43,502 bases of DNA from an uncultured Bacteroidales bacterium. Lineage in GTDB: Bacteria > Bacteroidota > Bacteroidia > Bacteroidales > UBA4417. The notes under the pieces are model-generated. The model was not told the origin of the DNA, made no database searches, and saw nothing but the letters and a program-made list of their open reading frames with translations. The stretch lies in NCBI GenBank assembly GCA_903946925.1, contig CAJAXK010000006.1:1-43502 (forward strand). The letters are read 5' to 3'. The translations under genes and the position numbers were made by a program. Position 1 is the stretch's first letter. Each line of letters begins with the position of its first letter. Shown piece by piece: positions 14,139-25,015 of the stretch.

Positions 14139-17100
14139 ATGAAAAACCTAAGGACCCTGATTATTCTTTTACTGATTACAGTTGGGATTAGTGTAACAGC
14201 GCAGGTTACCATTAATACGGACAACAGCGCTCCCGATCCTTCGGCGATGCTCGATGTGAAATCTGATAACCGTGGGTTACTGATCCCGCGGATTTCAACT
14301 GCTGCCAGGGACCTGATCCCTTCACCCGCGACAGGACTTTTAATCTATAATTCGACGACAAACCGGTTCGACTATTATAATGGCAGTTTCTGGCATCAGT
14401 TGGGAACAGCTTTTATTTCATCTACAGCCGGGACTGTAAACCCGGGCGGCGGTGTCGCAATTAATGTTTTGCCCGATATACTTCCTGATAATTCTGCTAT
14501 GCTGGATATCAATGATCCAGGCAGGGGTATTTTGATTCCCCGGATTTCGACTTCCGCGCGCGACCTGATTGCATCACCTGCAACCGGGTTGATTATTTAT
14601 AACACGAGTACCAATCTGCTTGATTATTACAATGGAGCCCAGTGGATAGCATTATGCTCTGTTTCTACCGGTATTCCGGGTGCCGGAGGAAGCCAGGCCG
14701 TAGTAGGAGTGGCCGTGAATACTGATAATTCAAGTCCTGACCCTTCCGCTATGCTTGATGTAGCATCAGCTGATAAGGGAGTTTTAATACCAAGGCTTAC
14801 AAATGCACAGCGCGACGCTATACTTCCTGTTACGGGCCTTGTTATCTACAATACATCAGCAAATTATATTGAGTTTTATAATGGTTCAGCCTGGTACCAG
14901 CTGATCACAAATCTTATTGTTCCCCCGACAGGCGGAACCCATGTCGCATCATCGAATCAGATTATTTGGAACTGGAATATTGTTGCCGGCGCTACTGGTT
15001 ATAAATGGAATACAGTCAATGATTACGCCACTGCGACCGATATGGCCTCCGCCATAACAAAAACCGAAACCGGGCTTGTATGCGCAACACCTCATACACG
15101 CTATGTGTGGGCATATAATGACTGTGGGTTTTCTTCGGCGCTGATATTAACAAAAACAACCCTGGCTTGCGGTACTTGCGCTTCTCCATTGGTTGATGCC
15201 CGCGACGGTCAATCTTACAATACTGTGCAAATTGGCACCCAATGCTGGATGGCTGAAAACCTGAACTTCGGCACCATGATTCCTGACGCCAACAACATGA
15301 CAAACAACAGCATTACTGAAAAGTATTGCTATGAAAACAATACTGCCAACTGCGATACCTATGGCGGACTCTATCAATGGAAGGAAACGATGGGATACAG
15401 CACAACACAGGGAGTGCAGGGCATTTGCCCTGCAGGCTGGCATATACCAACGAATGATGAATGGACAGTATTAACTGATTTATTGGGTAGTGAGCCTGTT
15501 GCCGGTGGTGAAATGAAAACAACAGGCACAATTGAAGCTGGAACGGGTTTGTGGCATGACCCGAACACAGCGGCAACAAATTCAAGCTGGTTTTCTGCAC
15601 TTCCGGGCGGCTACCGCCAGGATGGAGGTGGTTTCACCCATCTGGGTAACTACGGCAACTTTTGGACTTCTACGGAGGTCATTACCGAATACGTGTGGTT
15701 CCGGAACCTGCTTTTTCATAACGCATTTGTGTCCAGCGGCTACGGTGTTGTTGAGGCATTAGGTTACAGTGTTCGTTGCCTGAAAGATACCCCGCCACCT
15801 GTATGGAGTTGCGGCGATCCTCTGCCTGATACCCGCGACAATCAAACTTATAATACAGTTCAGATTGGTACGCAATGCTGGATGGCTGAGAACCTGAACA
15901 TCGGCACAACAATACCAGGCGGTACAGACATGGCAAACAACAGCATTATCGAAAAATATTGCAATGAAAACAATGCCGCCAACTGTGATACTTATGGCGG
16001 GCTTTATCAATGGAATGAAATGATGGGGTACACTACAACACCCGGAGTGCAGGGCATTTGCCCGACAGGCTGGCATGTACCCACAGATACAGAGTGGACA
16101 GTATTAACTGACTATTTAGGCGGTGAAAGCATTGCCGGAGGTAAAATGAAAACAACGGGTACAATTGAAGCCGGCACGGGTTTGTGGTATGCTTCTAACA
16201 ACGGTGCCACAAATTCAAGTGGGTTTTCTGCAATTCCCGGCGGCTACCGCTACGGCCCTGATTTGTTCAACACTGTGGGTGGCAATGCCAACTTTTGGTC
16301 TTCTTCGGAGTACAATACAAATGACGGGGTATGCCGGGAACTGCTCGCTACTATTCCCAATGTGAGCCGTTTCAGCATTAGCAAGGGCGTCGGTTTTAGC
16401 GTTCGTTGCGTAAAAGATATCCCACCAACTGTATGGAGTTGTGGCGATCCTCTTCCTGATACCCGCGACAACCAATCATACAATACAGTTCAGATTGGTA
16501 CGCAATGCTGGATGGCAGAGAACCTGAACATCGGTATGACAATACCAGGTGCAACAGACATGGCCAACAACAGCAATACTGAAAAGTATTGCTACGAAGA
16601 TAACGCAGCCAATTGTGATACATACGGCGGACTTTATCAATGGAACGAAATGATGCAATATGTCACTACACCCGGAGTTCAAGGCATTTGCCCGACAGGC
16701 TGGCATATACCGGTCGATGCAGAGTGGACATTATTAACCGCTTTTTTAGGCGGTGAAAGCATTGCCGGAGGTAAAATGAAAACAACGGGTACTATTGAAG
16801 CCGGCACAGGTTTGTGGTTTGCTCCGAACACAGGGTCCACAAATTCAAGTGGTTTTTCTGCCCTTCCCGGTGGCAACCGCTATGGCAATGGTAGTTTCTA
16901 CGATAAGGGATTACGTGCATTCTTTTGGTCTTCTACGGAGGACCAGCCGAATTTCTCGTATCGCCGCATCCTGAATTACGATAACACCGCAGTAAACCGT
17001 GACTACTTTTGGGAGAACAGTGGTTATAGTGTTCGTTGCGTAAAAGATATCCCACCGCCTGCCTGGAGTTGCGGCCAACCTCTTTCGGTAACTCACACTG

Positions 17101-20100
17101 CCGGTGATATTGCCCCGGTAAATAAAACAGTTGCTTATGGAACTGTTGAAACGAACCTTACCGGAAGCAATCAATGCTGGATAACCCAAAACCTTGGTTC
17201 TGATCATCAGGCTGTTTCTGCCACCGATGCCACCGAAGAATCTGCAGGCTGGTACTGGCAGTTTAACCACAAACAGGGGTATAAGCACGATGGTACAACA
17301 CGGACACCCAATACAGCCTGGATTTCATCAATCGATGAAAACAGCGACTGGCTGACTGCTAATGATCCATGTGCCTTATTATTAGGCGCCGGCTGGCGAC
17401 TCCCTACCAGCACCGAATGGACGAATGCCGATGCAAACGGTGGTTGGAACAACTATAATCAAACCTACGCAAGCTTGCTGAAGTTGCATGCAGCCGGCTA
17501 CCTCGACTACTACGATGGTAGGCTTCTCAACAGAGGTTCCGGCGGCTACGACTGGAGCAGTGCACAGGACAACAGCACCAACGGGTGGAACCTGAGCTAC
17601 GGAAGTAGCGTCAGCGACATGTACGCCAGCAGTAAGGCGTTCGGCCTTAGTGGCCGTTGCCTGAAAGATACTAATCCACCTGTCTGGAGCTGTGGCCAGC
17701 CACTCCCGGTTACACATACTGCCGGTGATGTTGCCCCGGTAAATAAAGCTGTAAGCTATGGAACCGTCGAAACCAATCTTACCGGAAGCAATTTCTGCTG
17801 GATCACACAGAACCTTGGTTCCGATCATCAGGCTATTTCTGCCACCGATGCCACAGAACAATCAGCTGGCTGGTACTGGCAGTTTAACCGCAAGCAGGGA
17901 TTTAAGCACGACGGAACAAACCGTACTCCGAATACAACCTGGATAACTTCGATCAACGAAAACAGCGACTGGTTAGCAATTAATGATCCATGTTCTTTAC
18001 TGTTAGGCGCCGGCTGGCGTCTTCCCACCAGCGCGGAATGGACGAATGCCGATGCCAATGGGGGTTGGATGAATTATAATGATACCTATGCCAGCGTATT
18101 GAAGTTACATGCTGCAGGGTATCTCGGATACAGCAATGGTTCACGTAGCGGAGCGGGTTCTTATGGCCTTTGCTGGAGCAGTGCACAGCATAGTACTACC
18201 TTTGGGTGGGACCTGCACTTCACTAACATCAGCATCAGTAATACCTCCGATAAGGCGAATGGCTTTAGCTCCCGTTGCTTGAAAGATACCCCTCCACCTG
18301 TATGGAGTTGCGGTCAGCCTCTTCCGGTAACTCACACTGCCGGTGATGTTGCCCCGGTAAATAAAGCTGTAAGCTATGGAACCGTCGAAACCAATCTTAC
18401 CGGAAGCAATTTCTGCTGGATCACACAGAATCTGGGTTCCGATCATCAAGCTGTTTCTGCAACCGATGCCACCGAAGAATCTGCGGGCTGGTACTGGCAA
18501 TTTAACCGCAAGCAGGGGTATAAGCACGATGGTACAACGCGCACGCCAAATGCAAGCTGGATAACTTCAATCAGTGAGGACATTGACTGGCAGATATGGG
18601 ATGATCCATGTGCTTTATCGTTAGGCAGCGACTGGCGTTTGCCCACCAATAGCGAGTGGAACAATGCGGATGACAGCGGGGGCTGGAACAACTCCGATCA
18701 AGCCTACGCAAGCGTGCTGAAATTACATACTGCCGGATACCTCAATCACAGCAATGGTGTGCTCCTCAGCAGAGGTTCCACAGGTTTGTTATGGAGCAGT
18801 TCGTATATCAACAATAATTATGCATGGAGCCTGGGCATCAACAGTACCGGCAGTGCTACGTACAGCAACACTAAGCACTATGGCTTTAGTGTTCGTTGCA
18901 TGAAAGACATGAATCCTCCTGCATGGAGTTGCGGTCAGCCTCTTCCGGTAACACACACTGCCGGAGATATTTCTCCGGTAAATAAAACAGTTGCTTATGG
19001 AACTGTAGAAACGGTACTTACAGGAAGCAATAAATGCTGGATAACCCAAAACCTTGGTTCTGATCATATGGCTGTTTCTGCCACCGATGCCACCGAAGAA
19101 TCTGCAGGCTGGTACTGGCAGTTTAACCGCAAGCAGGGGTATAAGCACGATGGTACAACCCGCACACCCAACACAGTCTGGATTTCATCAATCGATGAAA
19201 ACAGCGACTGGCTGACAGCTAACGATCCTTGTACTTTATTGCTTGGCGCCGGCTGGCGACTTCCTACCAGTGCCGAATGGTGGAATGTCAATGCAAACGG
19301 TGGTTGGCCCAACTTTGATCAAACCTACGCAAGCGCGCTTAAATTGCATGCAGCCGGCTTCCTTAACGCCAGCCATGGTTGGCTCTACAACAGAGGTTCC
19401 GAAGGCGGCGGCTACGACTGGAGCAGTACACAGGAAAGCAGCACCAACGGGTGGAACCTGAGCTACGGCAGTGGCGTCAGCAGCATGTACGCCAGCAGTA
19501 AGGCATACGGCTTTAGCTCCCGTTGCCTGAAAGATACCCCTCCACCTGTATGGAGTTGCGGCCAGCCTCTTTCGGTAACGCACACTGCCGGCGATATTTC
19601 TCCTGTAAATAAAACAGTTGCTTATGGAACTGTAGAAACGAACCTTACCGGTAGCAATAAATGTTGGATCACCCAAAATCTTGGCGCCGATCACCAGGCA
19701 GTTTCTGCCACCGATGCCACAGAACAATCTGCAGGCTGGTACTGGCAGTTTGACCGAAAGCAGGGATTTAAGCACGATGGAACAACCCGTACACCAAACA
19801 CAACCTGGATTTATACTTATGGCATAAGTGAATATGAAGACTGGCTGCCGGCAAACGATCCCTGTACTTTATTGTTAGGCAACGGCTGGAGGTTGCCAAC
19901 CCATGGGGAGTGGAATAGTGCCAATGTTAACGGGGGCTGGAACGGCTTCAATCAAGCCTATGCAAGTGTGCTGAAACTGCATGCGGCAGGATACCTCGAC
20001 TACCACAATGGTTCGCTACTCAACAGTGGTTCGCTAGGCTTTTATTTTAGCAGTTCGCAGGTCAGCCCCGATTACGGCTGGAGCCTTCTGATAGGCAATA

Positions 20101-21716
20101 GTGGCAGTAATATGTACAGCAACAGTAAGTATTACGGCTTTAGCAGCCGCTGCCTGAAAGATACCCCTCCACCTGTTTGGAGTTGTGGCGATCCTCTGCT
20201 TGATACCCGAGACAATCAAACTTACAACACCGTGCAGATTGATACCCAATGCTGGATGGCAGAGAACCTGAACATTGGCTCGATGACACAAGGTGGTACT
20301 GCAATGACTAACAACAGCATTACTGAAAAGTATTGTTATCAAAACAATACTACCAATTGTGATACCTACGGCGGACTATACCAGTGGTATGAAATGATGC
20401 AATATGCCACTATTCCGGGAGTGCAAGGCATTTGCCCGGCAGGCTGGCATTTACCGGCCGATGCAGAGTGGACAACATTAACTACCTTTTTAGGTGGCGA
20501 AAGCATTGCTGGTGGTAAAATGAAAACTACGGGTACCATTGAAGCCGGCACGGGTTTGTGGCATGATCCGAACACCGGGGCCACCAATTCAAGCGGTTTG
20601 TCTGCTCTTCCCGGCGGCATGATGATTCATGACGGTAGTTCCACCAGTATGGGTAACTATGCCAACTTCTGGTCTTCAACCGAATATTATCCTGATTATG
20701 CTAAGTACCGGCTCTTGTACCATAGTCACGCCATTGTTGACAATTACGGTGGTTACGAGGGTTATGGTTTAAGTGTCCGTTGCGTTAAGGGCGAATATAT
20801 TAACCTTCCTCCTTTTCAACCTGCAAGTCCTATTCCCCAAGACAACACACACAATCATTCGGCGAACACAATACTTTCCTGGACATGCACCGACCCGGAA
20901 AATGACCCATTGAATTATGATATATATTTTGGAAAAAATTATTTCCCGGTTCTTGTTGCTTCCGGGCAAACAGCAACGAGCTACAACCCTGGCATACTTG
21001 AAAACAACACTGTCTATTCCTGGATGATTGTTGCACATGATAACCATAGCAATACAACCGAAGGGCTGTATTGGAGTTTTACAACAGCTCCTTCATGGCA
21101 GTGTGGCGCACCAATAACTGATGCACGGGACAACCAAACTTACTCCACTGTTCAGATTGATACCCAATGCTGGATGGCAGAGAACCTGAACTTCGGCACG
21201 ATGATACCAGGCGCCAGTGAAATGGCAAACAACAGCCTTATTGAAAAATACTGTTATGATGACAACATAGCCAACTGCGATGTTTATGGAGGACTATATC
21301 AATGGAATGAAATGATGGGGTACAGCACAACACCCGGAGTGCAAGGCATTTGCCCGGCAGGCTGGCATGTACCAACGCAAGATGAATGGTATGGGCTTAC
21401 TGATTATTTGGGAGGTGAGCCTGTTGCCGGAGGTAAAATGAAGGCGACAGGTACTATTGAAGCAGGCATGGGTTTGTGGCTTGCTCCGAACACTGGGGCC
21501 ATAAATACAAGCGGGTTTACTGCGATACCAGGTGGTTATCGCCTATATGGTGGTATTTTCGAAAGTCCGGGCTATCACTCCTTCTTTTGGTCATCTACTG
21601 AATATGATGTAGATTATGCGAGAGACCGGGGCTTGTACTATAATGTAGCCAGTGTTATCAGTGGAACCTTACAGCACAAGGTCGCCGGATTTAGTGTTCG
21701 TTGCCTGAGGGATTAA
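14139..21716 (+). CDS. Giant secreted protein with ten tandem Fib_succ_major lectin-like domains
   Basis: The protein has 2525 residues with a signal peptide (MKNLRTLIILLLITVGISVTAQ). Three SAMLDV...LIPR...RD units follow (~residues 28-90, 115-172, 195-255; each ending in a YYNG-x-x-W pattern), then a fibronectin-III-like domain (~262-344). Ten domains of the Fib_succ_major type come next, with C-type-lectin/formylglycine-enzyme-like features: CWMAENLN or CWITQNLG, GICPAGWHIP or GAGWRLPT, FWSSTE or WSSAQ, and a terminal VRCLKD. In DNA positions, subfamily A copies are at 15178-15788, 15804-16418, 16434-17048, 20178-20789 and 21096-21713; subfamily B copies are at 17064-17669, 17685-18287, 18303-18908, 18924-19535 and 19551-20162. 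A second fibronectin-like domain lies at about 20800-21090. No type IX sorting tail is present. Binding or adhesion is likely; the ligand is unknown. Confidence 0.9.
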   Translation: MKNLRTLIILLLITVGISVTAQVTINTDNSAPDPSAMLDVKSDNRGLLIPRISTAARDLIPSPATGLLIYNSTTNRFDYYNGSFWHQLGTAFISSTAGTVNPGGGVAINVLPDILPDNSAMLDINDPGRGILIPRISTSARDLIASPATGLIIYNTSTNLLDYYNGAQWIALCSVSTGIPGAGGSQAVVGVAVNTDNSSPDPSAMLDVASADKGVLIPRLTNAQRDAILPVTGLVIYNTSANYIEFYNGSAWYQLITNLIVPPTGGTHVASSNQIIWNWNIVAGATGYKWNTVNDYATATDMASAITKTETGLVCATPHTRYVWAYNDCGFSSALILTKTTLACGTCASPLVDARDGQSYNTVQIGTQCWMAENLNFGTMIPDANNMTNNSITEKYCYENNTANCDTYGGLYQWKETMGYSTTQGVQGICPAGWHIPTNDEWTVLTDLLGSEPVAGGEMKTTGTIEAGTGLWHDPNTAATNSSWFSALPGGYRQDGGGFTHLGNYGNFWTSTEVITEYVWFRNLLFHNAFVSSGYGVVEALGYSVRCLKDTPPPVWSCGDPLPDTRDNQTYNTVQIGTQCWMAENLNIGTTIPGGTDMANNSIIEKYCNENNAANCDTYGGLYQWNEMMGYTTTPGVQGICPTGWHVPTDTEWTVLTDYLGGESIAGGKMKTTGTIEAGTGLWYASNNGATNSSGFSAIPGGYRYGPDLFNTVGGNANFWSSSEYNTNDGVCRELLATIPNVSRFSISKGVGFSVRCVKDIPPTVWSCGDPLPDTRDNQSYNTVQIGTQCWMAENLNIGMTIPGATDMANNSNTEKYCYEDNAANCDTYGGLYQWNEMMQYVTTPGVQGICPTGWHIPVDAEWTLLTAFLGGESIAGGKMKTTGTIEAGTGLWFAPNTGSTNSSGFSALPGGNRYGNGSFYDKGLRAFFWSSTEDQPNFSYRRILNYDNTAVNRDYFWENSGYSVRCVKDIPPPAWSCGQPLSVTHTAGDIAPVNKTVAYGTVETNLTGSNQCWITQNLGSDHQAVSATDATEESAGWYWQFNHKQGYKHDGTTRTPNTAWISSIDENSDWLTANDPCALLLGAGWRLPTSTEWTNADANGGWNNYNQTYASLLKLHAAGYLDYYDGRLLNRGSGGYDWSSAQDNSTNGWNLSYGSSVSDMYASSKAFGLSGRCLKDTNPPVWSCGQPLPVTHTAGDVAPVNKAVSYGTVETNLTGSNFCWITQNLGSDHQAISATDATEQSAGWYWQFNRKQGFKHDGTNRTPNTTWITSINENSDWLAINDPCSLLLGAGWRLPTSAEWTNADANGGWMNYNDTYASVLKLHAAGYLGYSNGSRSGAGSYGLCWSSAQHSTTFGWDLHFTNISISNTSDKANGFSSRCLKDTPPPVWSCGQPLPVTHTAGDVAPVNKAVSYGTVETNLTGSNFCWITQNLGSDHQAVSATDATEESAGWYWQFNRKQGYKHDGTTRTPNASWITSISEDIDWQIWDDPCALSLGSDWRLPTNSEWNNADDSGGWNNSDQAYASVLKLHTAGYLNHSNGVLLSRGSTGLLWSSSYINNNYAWSLGINSTGSATYSNTKHYGFSVRCMKDMNPPAWSCGQPLPVTHTAGDISPVNKTVAYGTVETVLTGSNKCWITQNLGSDHMAVSATDATEESAGWYWQFNRKQGYKHDGTTRTPNTVWISSIDENSDWLTANDPCTLLLGAGWRLPTSAEWWNVNANGGWPNFDQTYASALKLHAAGFLNASHGWLYNRGSEGGGYDWSSTQESSTNGWNLSYGSGVSSMYASSKAYGFSSRCLKDTPPPVWSCGQPLSVTHTAGDISPVNKTVAYGTVETNLTGSNKCWITQNLGADHQAVSATDATEQSAGWYWQFDRKQGFKHDGTTRTPNTTWIYTYGISEYEDWLPANDPCTLLLGNGWRLPTHGEWNSANVNGGWNGFNQAYASVLKLHAAGYLDYHNGSLLNSGSLGFYFSSSQVSPDYGWSLLIGNSGSNMYSNSKYYGFSSRCLKDTPPPVWSCGDPLLDTRDNQTYNTVQIDTQCWMAENLNIGSMTQGGTAMTNNSITEKYCYQNNTTNCDTYGGLYQWYEMMQYATIPGVQGICPAGWHLPADAEWTTLTTFLGGESIAGGKMKTTGTIEAGTGLWHDPNTGATNSSGLSALPGGMMIHDGSSTSMGNYANFWSSTEYYPDYAKYRLLYHSHAIVDNYGGYEGYGLSVRCVKGEYINLPPFQPASPIPQDNTHNHSANTILSWTCTDPENDPLNYDIYFGKNYFPVLVASGQTATSYNPGILENNTVYSWMIVAHDNHSNTTEGLYWSFTTAPSWQCGAPITDARDNQTYSTVQIDTQCWMAENLNFGTMIPGASEMANNSLIEKYCYDDNIANCDVYGGLYQWNEMMGYSTTPGVQGICPAGWHVPTQDEWYGLTDYLGGEPVAGGKMKATGTIEAGMGLWLAPNTGAINTSGFTAIPGGYRLYGGIFESPGYHSFFWSSTEYDVDYARDRGLYYNVASVISGTLQHKVAGFSVRCLRD
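17064..20162 (+). repeat. Five tandem ~610-bp subfamily-B coding repeats
   Basis: Repeats start at the TGG of a W-S-C-G-Q-P motif at 17064, 17685, 18303, 18924 and 19551, each about 610-620 bp apart. Their first halves are nearly identical at DNA level: about 90 bases are the same in copies 2 and 3 (from about 17721 and 18339), and copies 1 and 4 share long stretches. Their last ~170 bases are much more variable. Confidence 0.9.
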
Positions 21717-23518: not shown

Positions 23519-25015
23519 ATGAAAGATCTCGATACAGTAGTGATAAAAAGAATTTCCAAGATAGGGTTATGTTGGGTAGCTACACTTTGCCTTTTATTGA
23601 GTACGATAGTGCCGGCAAAAGCCGGGATTGTTGTAACAAGCGGTTCGACTCTGCGGGTATCTGCAGGTACTACCCTGGTTAATTCCGGGGCAATAACGCT
23701 TAAAAGCGGAGGTGCAATTACAAATCTCGGGACAATTAATGTTTCAGGTAATCTTGATAATCAAAATGCTTCATTAACAGATCTGGGCAGCGGCACCTTC
23801 CTGTTTAACGGGGCGTCGCTTCAGAATGTCAACGGGCAGAATACCTTTGGAAATATAACTATTAACAATGCAGCCAGTATTACACTTAACGGAAATACAA
23901 ATGTTAATGGAACCTTAACCTTTACAGAAGGACTTATAATGATTGGGGCGAATAACTTGCTCCTTGGACCTTCTGCATCGGTATCGGGATCTCCATCATC
24001 AATGGCCATGGTTGTGGCAACTGGTAGCGGTGAGTTCCGCAAATCATTTGCTTCTGCCGGTAGTTTTACATTTCCGGTTGGTGATAATACAGGTGCAGCA
24101 GAATATTCCCCTGTAGCAATTGTATTTACCGGTGGAAGTTTTGGCAGTGATAATTACGCTGGTGTTAGCCTTGCGAATGCGGCATATCCTACTTCTACCG
24201 GAAATTACCTGAATCGTTATTGGGCAATTTCTCAAAGCGGTATTGCAGGATTTACCTGCGATGCTATATTTCAATATCAGGTAGCTGATGTCATTGGATC
24301 TGAAAGTCAACTATTTTTAGAAAGGGTTTTACCTGAGCCTCCTGTATATCTCAATGCTGCCAATACAAGTCTCCACCAGTTAACAGCAACCGATTTAACA
24401 GGCTTCGGTACTTTTACAGGAGCACAGTTCCTTGCAATAAAAACACTCAACCTTACTTTGTTTCTTGAGAGTCTTTATGACGGTGGCAGTATAATGCGCA
24501 AAGCTCAGAATGCTTCCGGTCATCAATATGCAGGTACAATTGCGGATCAGGTTAGCATAGAATTCCACAACACAACTATTCCATATACTCTTGCCGGAGG
24601 CCCTTACATTGTTAATGTTAATACGGATGGAACCGCAACTTTTACGGTTCCCTCTTCCCTTAGCTCGAATTATTACATAGTTGCAATGCACCGTAACAGT
24701 ATCGAAACCTGGACAGGTGTGCCGCTTTCATTCAGCGGATCGACAGTCGATTACAACTTTACCACTTCTGCCAGCCAGGCTTTCGGTAGTAACCTTAAAC
24801 TGATCTCAGGCAAGTATGTGATTTACGGAGGGGATGTGAACCAGGATGGCGTTGTGGATGCGGGTGACATGATCCCGCTGGATAATGATGCTGCTAACTT
24901 TGCAAATGGCTATTTATCAACAGATACTAATGGAGATGGCTCTGTTAATTCAAATGATCAAACAATTCTGCAAAATAACAGTACATTGTTTATAGGTAAA
25001 ATAATTCCTCAGTAA
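23519..25015 (+). CDS. Secreted beta-solenoid protein with C-terminal dockerin-like calcium repeats
   Basis: The 498-residue protein has a signal peptide (ending VPAKA before G). Residues ~37-165 consist of short repeats rich in G, T, N and V (SGSTLRVSAGTTLVNSGAITL and similar), typical of a right-handed beta-solenoid. A beta-sandwich region follows, with a pattern also seen in Bacteroidota surface proteins (RYWAISQSG). The last ~62 residues contain two EF-hand-like calcium loops, GDVNQDGVVDAGDM and TDTNGDGSVNSND, arranged as in type I dockerin domains. Dockerins bind cohesins, but no cohesin was recognised in this window; in Bacteroidota such domains often occur outside cellulosomes. The substrate or partner is unknown. 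Confidence 0.8.
   Translation: MKDLDTVVIKRISKIGLCWVATLCLLLSTIVPAKAGIVVTSGSTLRVSAGTTLVNSGAITLKSGGAITNLGTINVSGNLDNQNASLTDLGSGTFLFNGASLQNVNGQNTFGNITINNAASITLNGNTNVNGTLTFTEGLIMIGANNLLLGPSASVSGSPSSMAMVVATGSGEFRKSFASAGSFTFPVGDNTGAAEYSPVAIVFTGGSFGSDNYAGVSLANAAYPTSTGNYLNRYWAISQSGIAGFTCDAIFQYQVADVIGSESQLFLERVLPEPPVYLNAANTSLHQLTATDLTGFGTFTGAQFLAIKTLNLTLFLESLYDGGSIMRKAQNASGHQYAGTIADQVSIEFHNTTIPYTLAGGPYIVNVNTDGTATFTVPSSLSSNYYIVAMHRNSIETWTGVPLSFSGSTVDYNFTTSASQAFGSNLKLISGKYVIYGGDVNQDGVVDAGDMIPLDNDAANFANGYLSTDTNGDGSVNSNDQTILQNNSTLFIGKIIPQ

Follow-up and report, generated by a model that had tools for sequence, protein, structure and literature searches.

Which process diversified the lectin-like repeats of a giant Bacteroidales protein, and is that process still at work? 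The protein is encoded in the window, by which we mean the whole 43,502-nucleotide stretch of DNA analysed here; the array lies on contig C6 of genome G000. A preliminary description, made from the letters alone, had pointed to codons in the repeats that look derived from AAY and had likened them to the targets of diversity-generating retroelements (DGRs), which comprise a reverse transcriptase (RT), Avd and an A-rich template (TR). In the explanation we favor, a DGR would have written the binding-site codons of these FISUMP domains in the past: copying of an A-rich template by the RT, with bases inserted at random wherever the template has an adenine, would have turned AAY into NNY codons in the variable region (VR) of each domain. 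We consider it very probable that the ten domains of the window are DGR-written lectin domains that have outlived their DGR.

The array gene encodes N-terminal repeats followed by three A-type FISUMP domains, five B-type FISUMP domains (B1-B5) and two further A-type domains. The N-terminus reads as signal-like. The B-type repeats (206-209 residues each) form a block between A-type domains 3 and 4, and the 3' end of their VRs encodes a conserved RC(L/V)(K/R)D. The features are listed here with the NNY counts of the individual B-type domains; the codon test on the five A-type domains was pooled.

14139..21716, + strand: array gene, an ORF encoding a 2,525-aa protein
15225..15785, + strand: A-type FISUMP domain 1 (PF09603)
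15858..16415, + strand: A-type FISUMP domain 2 (PF09603)
16488..17045, + strand: A-type FISUMP domain 3 (PF09603)
17064..17684, + strand: B-type domain 1, VR core about 17502-17648, NNY at 17/18 template-AAY codons
17685..18302, + strand: B-type domain 2, VR core about 18123-18266, NNY at 16/18
18303..18923, + strand: B-type domain 3, VR core about 18741-18887, NNY at 16/18
18924..19550, + strand: B-type domain 4, VR core about 19362-19514, NNY at 16/18
19551..20177, + strand: B-type domain 5, VR core about 19995-20141, NNY at 16/18
20232..20789, + strand: A-type FISUMP domain 4 (PF09603)
21150..21710, + strand: A-type FISUMP domain 5 (PF09603)

The whole protein matches PF09603 (8e-182) and TIGR02145 (7e-237). 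All five A-type domains exceed the curated Pfam cut-off for PF09603. B1 alone scores 24.7 bits against a cut-off of 41.65 (TIGR02145) and 20 against 33.9 (PF09603), and the B-type repeats are best classified, from their sequence, as a divergent branch of FISUMP/Fib_succ_major. Matches of Pfam Imm71, DUF6745 and several NCBIfam entries on P0001 all fell below cut-off and were set aside. Downstream (3') of the array, an ORF at 23519-25015 (+) of the window has a Dockerin_1 match of 25.4 bits (cut-off 22.9).

An AlphaFold2 model of the B-type domain, built from 128 family members (alignment A3, 128 of 139 listed repeats), reached a pLDDT of 95.7. It replaced a first model from 19 sequences with a mean pLDDT of 50.3, which was discarded; alignment A2 held 19 of 21 rows (L045 was out, having a stop, and L074 was left out). 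The best Foldseek match in the PDB was the Lcl C-terminal domain (8q4e, E 3e-3), with none at E <= 1e-3. VIA returned Bd2740 (Z 8.1), Lcl (Z 7.7) and 4eps (5.9), and the rest were mostly C-type lectins, together with SenA/EgtB/FGE enzymes, whose fold is akin to that of C-type lectins; at Z 5-8 these matches are middling. Among PDB chains, there was no sequence match at E <= 1. The B-type domain is thus predicted to adopt a C-type-lectin-like fold, as had been supposed for Fib_succ_major domains.

Scanning the contigs of relatives with B1 (best 80 of 315 relatives) gave 77 loci that were kept. RTs were searched for in the 34 genomes of these loci and matched in 24, and the RT loci inspected were 30 given and 31 fetched stretches, a part of the matching rows. 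By motif reading, some of the fetched loci encode RTs with IGN-TSQ and YxDD, which we take to be DGR RT motifs. A profile scan placed A-rich copies of the B-type VR beside RTs, as B-type templates, in five genomes (G006, G012, G015, G022 and G061); A-type templates adjoin RTs in G001, G006 and G022. Beside the B-type template, G006, G015 and G061 have a full-length RT; the RT is interrupted in G012 and truncated in G022 (G095 in the DGR-RT profile search), where it matches positions 19-174 of 363 only. In cassette L142 the order is target, an ORF of about 171 residues, template, Avd (PF22296 1.2e-14, also phrog_3206) and RT (phrog_1423 1.9e-98).

In the core, target and adjoining template differ at adenines and nowhere else: 20/52 A and 0/98 non-A mismatches in G006, 20/53 and 0/97 in G015, 27/60 and 0/90 in G022, and 22/54 and 0/96 in G061. 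For G012, the closest domain lies on a different contig and has 24/52 A and 2/98 non-A mismatches against the template. Two A-type cassettes behave likewise (L131, 19/58 A and 0/131 non-A; L145, 44/69 A and 0/124 non-A). A longer A-type alignment in L151 (G022) has 5/127 non-A mismatches, all outside the core. The A-type template of L127 has no target in the fetched stretch, and the A-type comparison leaves out the G006 A-type template (L114/L135). These cassettes indicate that DGRs in related Bacteroidales write the B-type FISUMP domain.

The ORF that separates target and template, about 171 residues long (L142:2432-2944, +; L135:4559-5068, -; L151:4418-4921, -) is an observation in its own right. 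It had no Pfam match in the two copies tested and weak PHROG matches. It occurs in 6 of 13 searched genomes, which are those with a FISUMP template (G001, G006, G012, G015, G022, G061), is interrupted by a stop in G022 and G061, and was found in none of the four own-genus genomes searched. It is a candidate for an unrecognised DGR accessory protein.

How do the relatives' templates relate to the repeats of the window? The G015 template has 18 AAY codons, which correspond to B1 residues 148, 149, 155, 156, 160, 162, 169, 173, 176, 178, 180, 183, 185, 187-190 and 193. The B-type templates of the five genomes carry 17-20 such codons each, of which 17 or 18 recur in G015. Across 142 near-complete B repeats (the 77 relative loci plus the window), column entropy reaches at least 3.2 bits at all 18 of these sites and elsewhere only at residues 15 and 116 and at 203 and 204, which are rich in gaps. 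Among the five B copies of the window, at least three different residues occur at 16/18 AAY sites versus 30/180 other sites (Fisher p = 8e-10) or, restricted to the VR, versus 13/38 other sites (p = 1e-4). Several template sites occupy alternate residues of the predicted strands 173-179 and 184-190 (176/178; 185/187), as would be expected of one exposed face.

The likeness to DGR targets noted in the preliminary description therefore extends to a codon-for-codon match between relatives' templates and the variable sites. Its codon sets were quoted exactly, both after the conserved G-Y/F-L (148, gac/gga/aat/aac/gac; 149, tac/tac/cac/gcc/tac; 150, tac/agc/agc/agc/cac; 151, gat/aat/aat/cat/aat) and after Trp175 (176, aac/gac/agc/aac/agc; 177, four ctg and one ctt; 178, agc/cac/ggc/agc/ctg; 179, tac/ttc/atc/tac/ata). 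Of these positions, 148, 149, 176 and 178 are AAY in the G015 template; 150, 151 and 179 are AGC, GAT and TTC there. Three of the differences it cited between copies 1 and 4 (aac/ccc, tat/ttt and aat/gat at 129, 131 and 132) lie upstream of the template-homologous stretch. The protein is, by reading, rich in N/S/T over its whole length, so AAY-like codons might simply have been picked by eye in an N-rich repeat. We give such an artefact a negligible probability, as the close site match to the templates of five genomes, the family-wide hypervariable columns and the VR/TR comparison within the cassettes all speak against it.

The codons at these sites also carry a fingerprint. The B repeats have NNY at 81/90 template-AAY codons (five copies at 18 sites). 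K/E/Q/M/W, residues that cannot arise from AAY via changes at adenines, take up 2/90 of these sites versus 139/873 elsewhere. To control for residue identity, we took the NNY share among residues able to use either third base. In the B repeats 38/45 such residues have NNY, where the remainder of the repeats would predict 30.7 (p = 0.008). When the AAY sites were taken from other templates, p was 0.008 (G006), 0.009 (G012), 0.003 (G022) and, not significantly, 0.18 (G061), and the residue-independent result for the B repeats is moderate only. The five A-type domains have NNY at 106/120 sites of the L127 template, 43/51 versus 30.3 after residue control (p = 5e-5), and the two A-type templates with checked targets gave 36/40 versus 23.0 and 44/54 versus 30.9. 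Three single FISUMP domains (two on contig C374, one on C214) served as a control and had NNY at 49/72 sites, 13/24 versus 14.3 expected (p = 0.79); the two checked-target templates again gave no excess there. Variable columns that are not AAY in the template have a lower NNY share of 208/303.

These counts bear on the strongest rival, ordinary diversifying selection, by which templates would have evolved onto the same binding residues and NNY would reflect residue preference. Binding residues such as Y, N, S and D are mostly encoded by NNY anyway. Other VR positions vary as well: first and second positions of non-AAY VR codons differ at 180/752 versus 361/2720 in the N-terminal part, a higher variation that could come from selection alone. 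The differences between B1 and B4 are likewise not limited to adenines. Against this reading, the NNY excess survives residue control in both domain types, single FISUMP domains of the same genome lack it at the same sites, non-AAY variable columns fall short of it, DGRs write B-type relatives, and the fingerprint fades with distance from the template (see below). We regard ordinary selection as an improbable explanation and favor writing of the sites by a DGR.

Is that DGR still in the genome? The assembly spans 6.17 Mb in 498 contigs, with completeness given as 100%. Of its three RVT_1 matches, two are RTs of group II introns (each 370 bits on TIGR04416) and the third is a retron III-A RT with a PRTase partner. 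On contig C153 (L003), the retron RT and PRTase-type ORF adjoin an ORF that reads as a type I restriction-modification methylase. Neither these RVT_1 matches nor a DGR-RT profile built from relatives revealed a DGR-type RT in the 6.17 Mb; at E <= 1e-25 the profile found only group II RT. DNA searches of the assembly with the B1 VR, a relative's TR and an A-type VR (E <= 10) returned no recognisable template; the matches listed were domain copies and weak hits of fewer than 30 bases, the latter taken as a group. Four bAvd matches all remained below the curated cut-off (best 35.4 versus 40 bits). The earlier remark that the window holds neither RT nor template thus extends to the assembled genome. 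The window VRs mismatch known templates at 22-39 of 87-96 non-A bases, so none of these can be named as cognate, and against relatives' templates their mismatches are not restricted to adenines.

Other sources were considered. In 15 further genomes of the genus, a single RT, that of G036, scored as a DGR RT (9e-151). Its neighbor reads as a protein of FGE-sulfatase type, no FISUMP template was found in the cassette contig (L138), and G036 was rejected as the source. RT matches in G037, G040 and G048 (E 1e-27 to 1e-33) score near the own group II RT and are, by score alone, not DGR. Among viral contigs (IMG/VR), B1 found two loci on a single contig, compared with 77 loci kept from bacterial genomes, where the best 80 of 315 relatives were retained.

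The repeats themselves indicate when writing took place. In a FastTree tree of the N-terminal parts of 71 domains, the five B repeats of the window group together as a single clade (support 0.976); their nearest neighbors are mostly repeats of G001 and G002 and not those of same-genus G036. At the first and second positions of AAY codons the five copies differ at 206/360, close to the 631/1008 of freshly written VRs from different loci (pair range 0.39-0.78), and their synonymous divergence is 34%. Because the AAY positions differ at this higher rate, the binding sites outpaced synonymous sites after duplication, a pattern that would be expected from DGR writing or from very strong selection. 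Base usage at the AAY sites is broadly like that of fresh VRs, with first-position T at 0.23 versus 0.39. From these data we infer that a DGR acted on the array gene itself around the time of its duplication.

Writing appears not to be recent. Synonymous divergence among B copies is about equal in the VR and the N-terminal part (75/220 versus 341/1017). In a narrower core it is slightly lower (44/171 versus 269/810), and on these data some old post-duplication writing cannot be told from none. For the A-type domains the values are 81/192 in the VR and 197/561 in the remainder. The VR backbone differs between B copies at 29% of positions versus 20% for the N-terminal part. Since the backbone has diverged to much the same extent as the remainder of each domain, it has most plausibly drifted along with it, with no recent rewriting. 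Copies 1 and 4, which had been offered as close at the DNA level, bear this out: in the C-terminal part 20/31 of their differences involve an A, with no restriction to adenines, and codon positions 1, 2 and 3 contribute 12, 9 and 10, with no restriction to the first two. The missing adenine restriction therefore counts against recent DGR activity. Among the options the preliminary description had listed (absent, distant, past or selection), "past" fits best, and its interpretation as a whole is partly supported and correct in this modified form.

Genome G015 is a positive control for what recent writing looks like. There, the VR of the cassette on C29 and two remote domains, on C200 and C90, agree at 91-92/96 positions of the backbone, and the N-terminal parts of the three are 32-37% different; a near-identical backbone over diverged N-termini means recent writing in trans. 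In G006, the remote B domains L286, L293 and L294 have a common VR backbone (3-6/96 different) that is 13-16/98 off the known G006 template, pointing to a putative second template, unassembled or lost.

A DGR in trans could in principle also be rewriting the window repeats today, from an RT and template that are unassembled or carried on a plasmid or prophage. The trans-writing from C29 to C200 and C90 in G015, the 498 contigs of the own assembly and the G006 remote domains, which illustrate that a template can be absent from an assembly, lend this some credit. Recent writing from one template would homogenise the VR backbone, which here is at 29% against 20%, and the synonymous divergence is alike in both parts of the domain. 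The own genome, with its completeness given as 100%, yielded no DGR RT and no recognisable template, and the only RT scoring as a DGR RT in the 15 other genomes of the genus has a target of FGE-sulfatase type. We consider current rewriting very improbable. The array looks like a former DGR target rather than a member of an intact DGR system, and the loss of the DGR is probably real and not an assembly gap.

If the array has since been under ordinary mutation, the diversity at AAY sites and the NNY fingerprint would persist while the rest of the VR drifts. A series of 198 distinct VRs, leaving out those with fewer than 15 of 18 AAY codons, shows a decay. Over bins of rising non-A mismatch to the nearest template (0-0.03, 0.03-0.1, 0.1-0.2, 0.2-0.3, 0.3-0.4 and over 0.4; n = 8, 11, 44, 57, 40 and 38), the NNY share falls through 1.00, 0.96, 0.955, 0.88, 0.80 and 0.75 (rho -0.73), and adenine mismatch rises from 0.42 to 0.51 only (rho 0.43). 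The window repeats sit at 0.25-0.41 non-A mismatch. The series contains related sequences, the nearest template is not always the cognate one, and template diversity inflates mismatch. As the G006 remote domains are off the known template yet alike, template diversity confounds non-A mismatch as a "clock", and we therefore rely on it only alongside the NNY decay and the within-genome comparison.

In the genome of the window, five long ORFs together encode 18 or more near-complete B domains (five on C6, seven on C293, three on C271, two on C112 and one on C57); such domain counts are lower bounds, as 16-20 candidates per genome at most were scored in searches with A2 and with DNA. The residue-controlled NNY excess is seen in the C6 and C293 arrays (46/56 versus 36.2). 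C271 (12/22 versus 13.1), C112 (11/19 versus 13.1) and C57 (4/6 versus 3.4) were scored as having no excess; pooled over all own-genome B arrays, the count is 111/148 versus 97.7 (p 0.009). The C293 ORF (L162 874-11535, -) is a second giant, with 3,554 residues and Fn3-like repeats (by reading) alternating with its seven B-type domains.

Outside the cell, the array protein would most likely present ten different ligand-binding sites, one fixed set. A wider reading, which we put forward tentatively and hold to be rather unlikely, is that DGRs diversify a single-domain lectin and that copies of useful variants enter giant proteins with many lectin domains, where they are kept as a heritable repertoire. 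Such copies might, with the same reserve, escape rewriting, so that the repertoire outlives the retroelement. A B variant common to L054, L075 and L295, from three genomes, supports the archive reading because its AAY codons were kept (1-4/36 first and second positions differ) while synonymous codons diverged (5-7 of 20-21 differ), as would be expected had the specificity been preserved once it was written. L054 and L075 are solo-domain proteins with similar N-termini. Three further variant pairs shared across genomes are unclear (4/36 versus 3/27; 5/36 versus 1/20; 10/36 versus 7/17).

These observations suggest that DGR output may be storable: written lectin domains pile up in large proteins, persist, and decay measurably in a genome with no detected element. 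This offers a route to former DGR targets without an RT, which RT-anchored surveys overlook, and the array is a ready natural set of binding-site variants for ligand testing.

FISUMP domains were already known as DGR targets. One source gives nine Fib_succ_major target proteins from human-gut metagenomes (PMC4159848, Table 2), another describes Bacteroides uniformis phage DGRs with Fib_succ_major/DUF1566 targets (PMC8143477), and a third also mentions Fib_succ_major as a target (PMC8934634). The name "FISUMP" had no match in the open-licence PMC literature, in which we found no account of stacked, decaying, RT-less orphan VR domains. Further reports state that a single template can be used for several VRs, part of them within the same ORF (31/271 multi-VR DGRs; PMC6642488), that such multi-VR DGRs and apparent trans writing occur (PMC6642488, PMC10907252), and that annotated VR regions have C-lectin folds and some DGRs are scored inactive (PMC8144416).

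By fold, the B-type domain resembles the DGR variable proteins Treponema TvpA (2y3c; VIA Z 6.6, rmsd 4.8 over 152 residues) and Thermus TaqVP (5vf4; VIA Z 6.0, rmsd 3.4 over 137 residues), neither of which matches it in sequence (PDB chains, E <= 1). The Lcl C-terminal domain (8q4e/PF07603), the best Foldseek match, has 17% identity, and Lcl_C is a weak Pfam match on repeat B4. With the Fib_succ_major/DUF1566 DGRs of PMC4159848 and PMC8143477, the array shares the target family, the C-type-lectin-like fold, the change of AAY to NNY and a VR placed C-terminally in the domain. It differs from them in that its genome yielded no DGR RT, recognisable TR or above-cut-off Avd, and in carrying ten VR-bearing domains per chain with a drifted backbone. 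In the multi-VR and remote-VR systems of PMC6642488 and PMC10907252, the DGR resides in the same genome, whereas the VRs of the window are orphaned and decayed.
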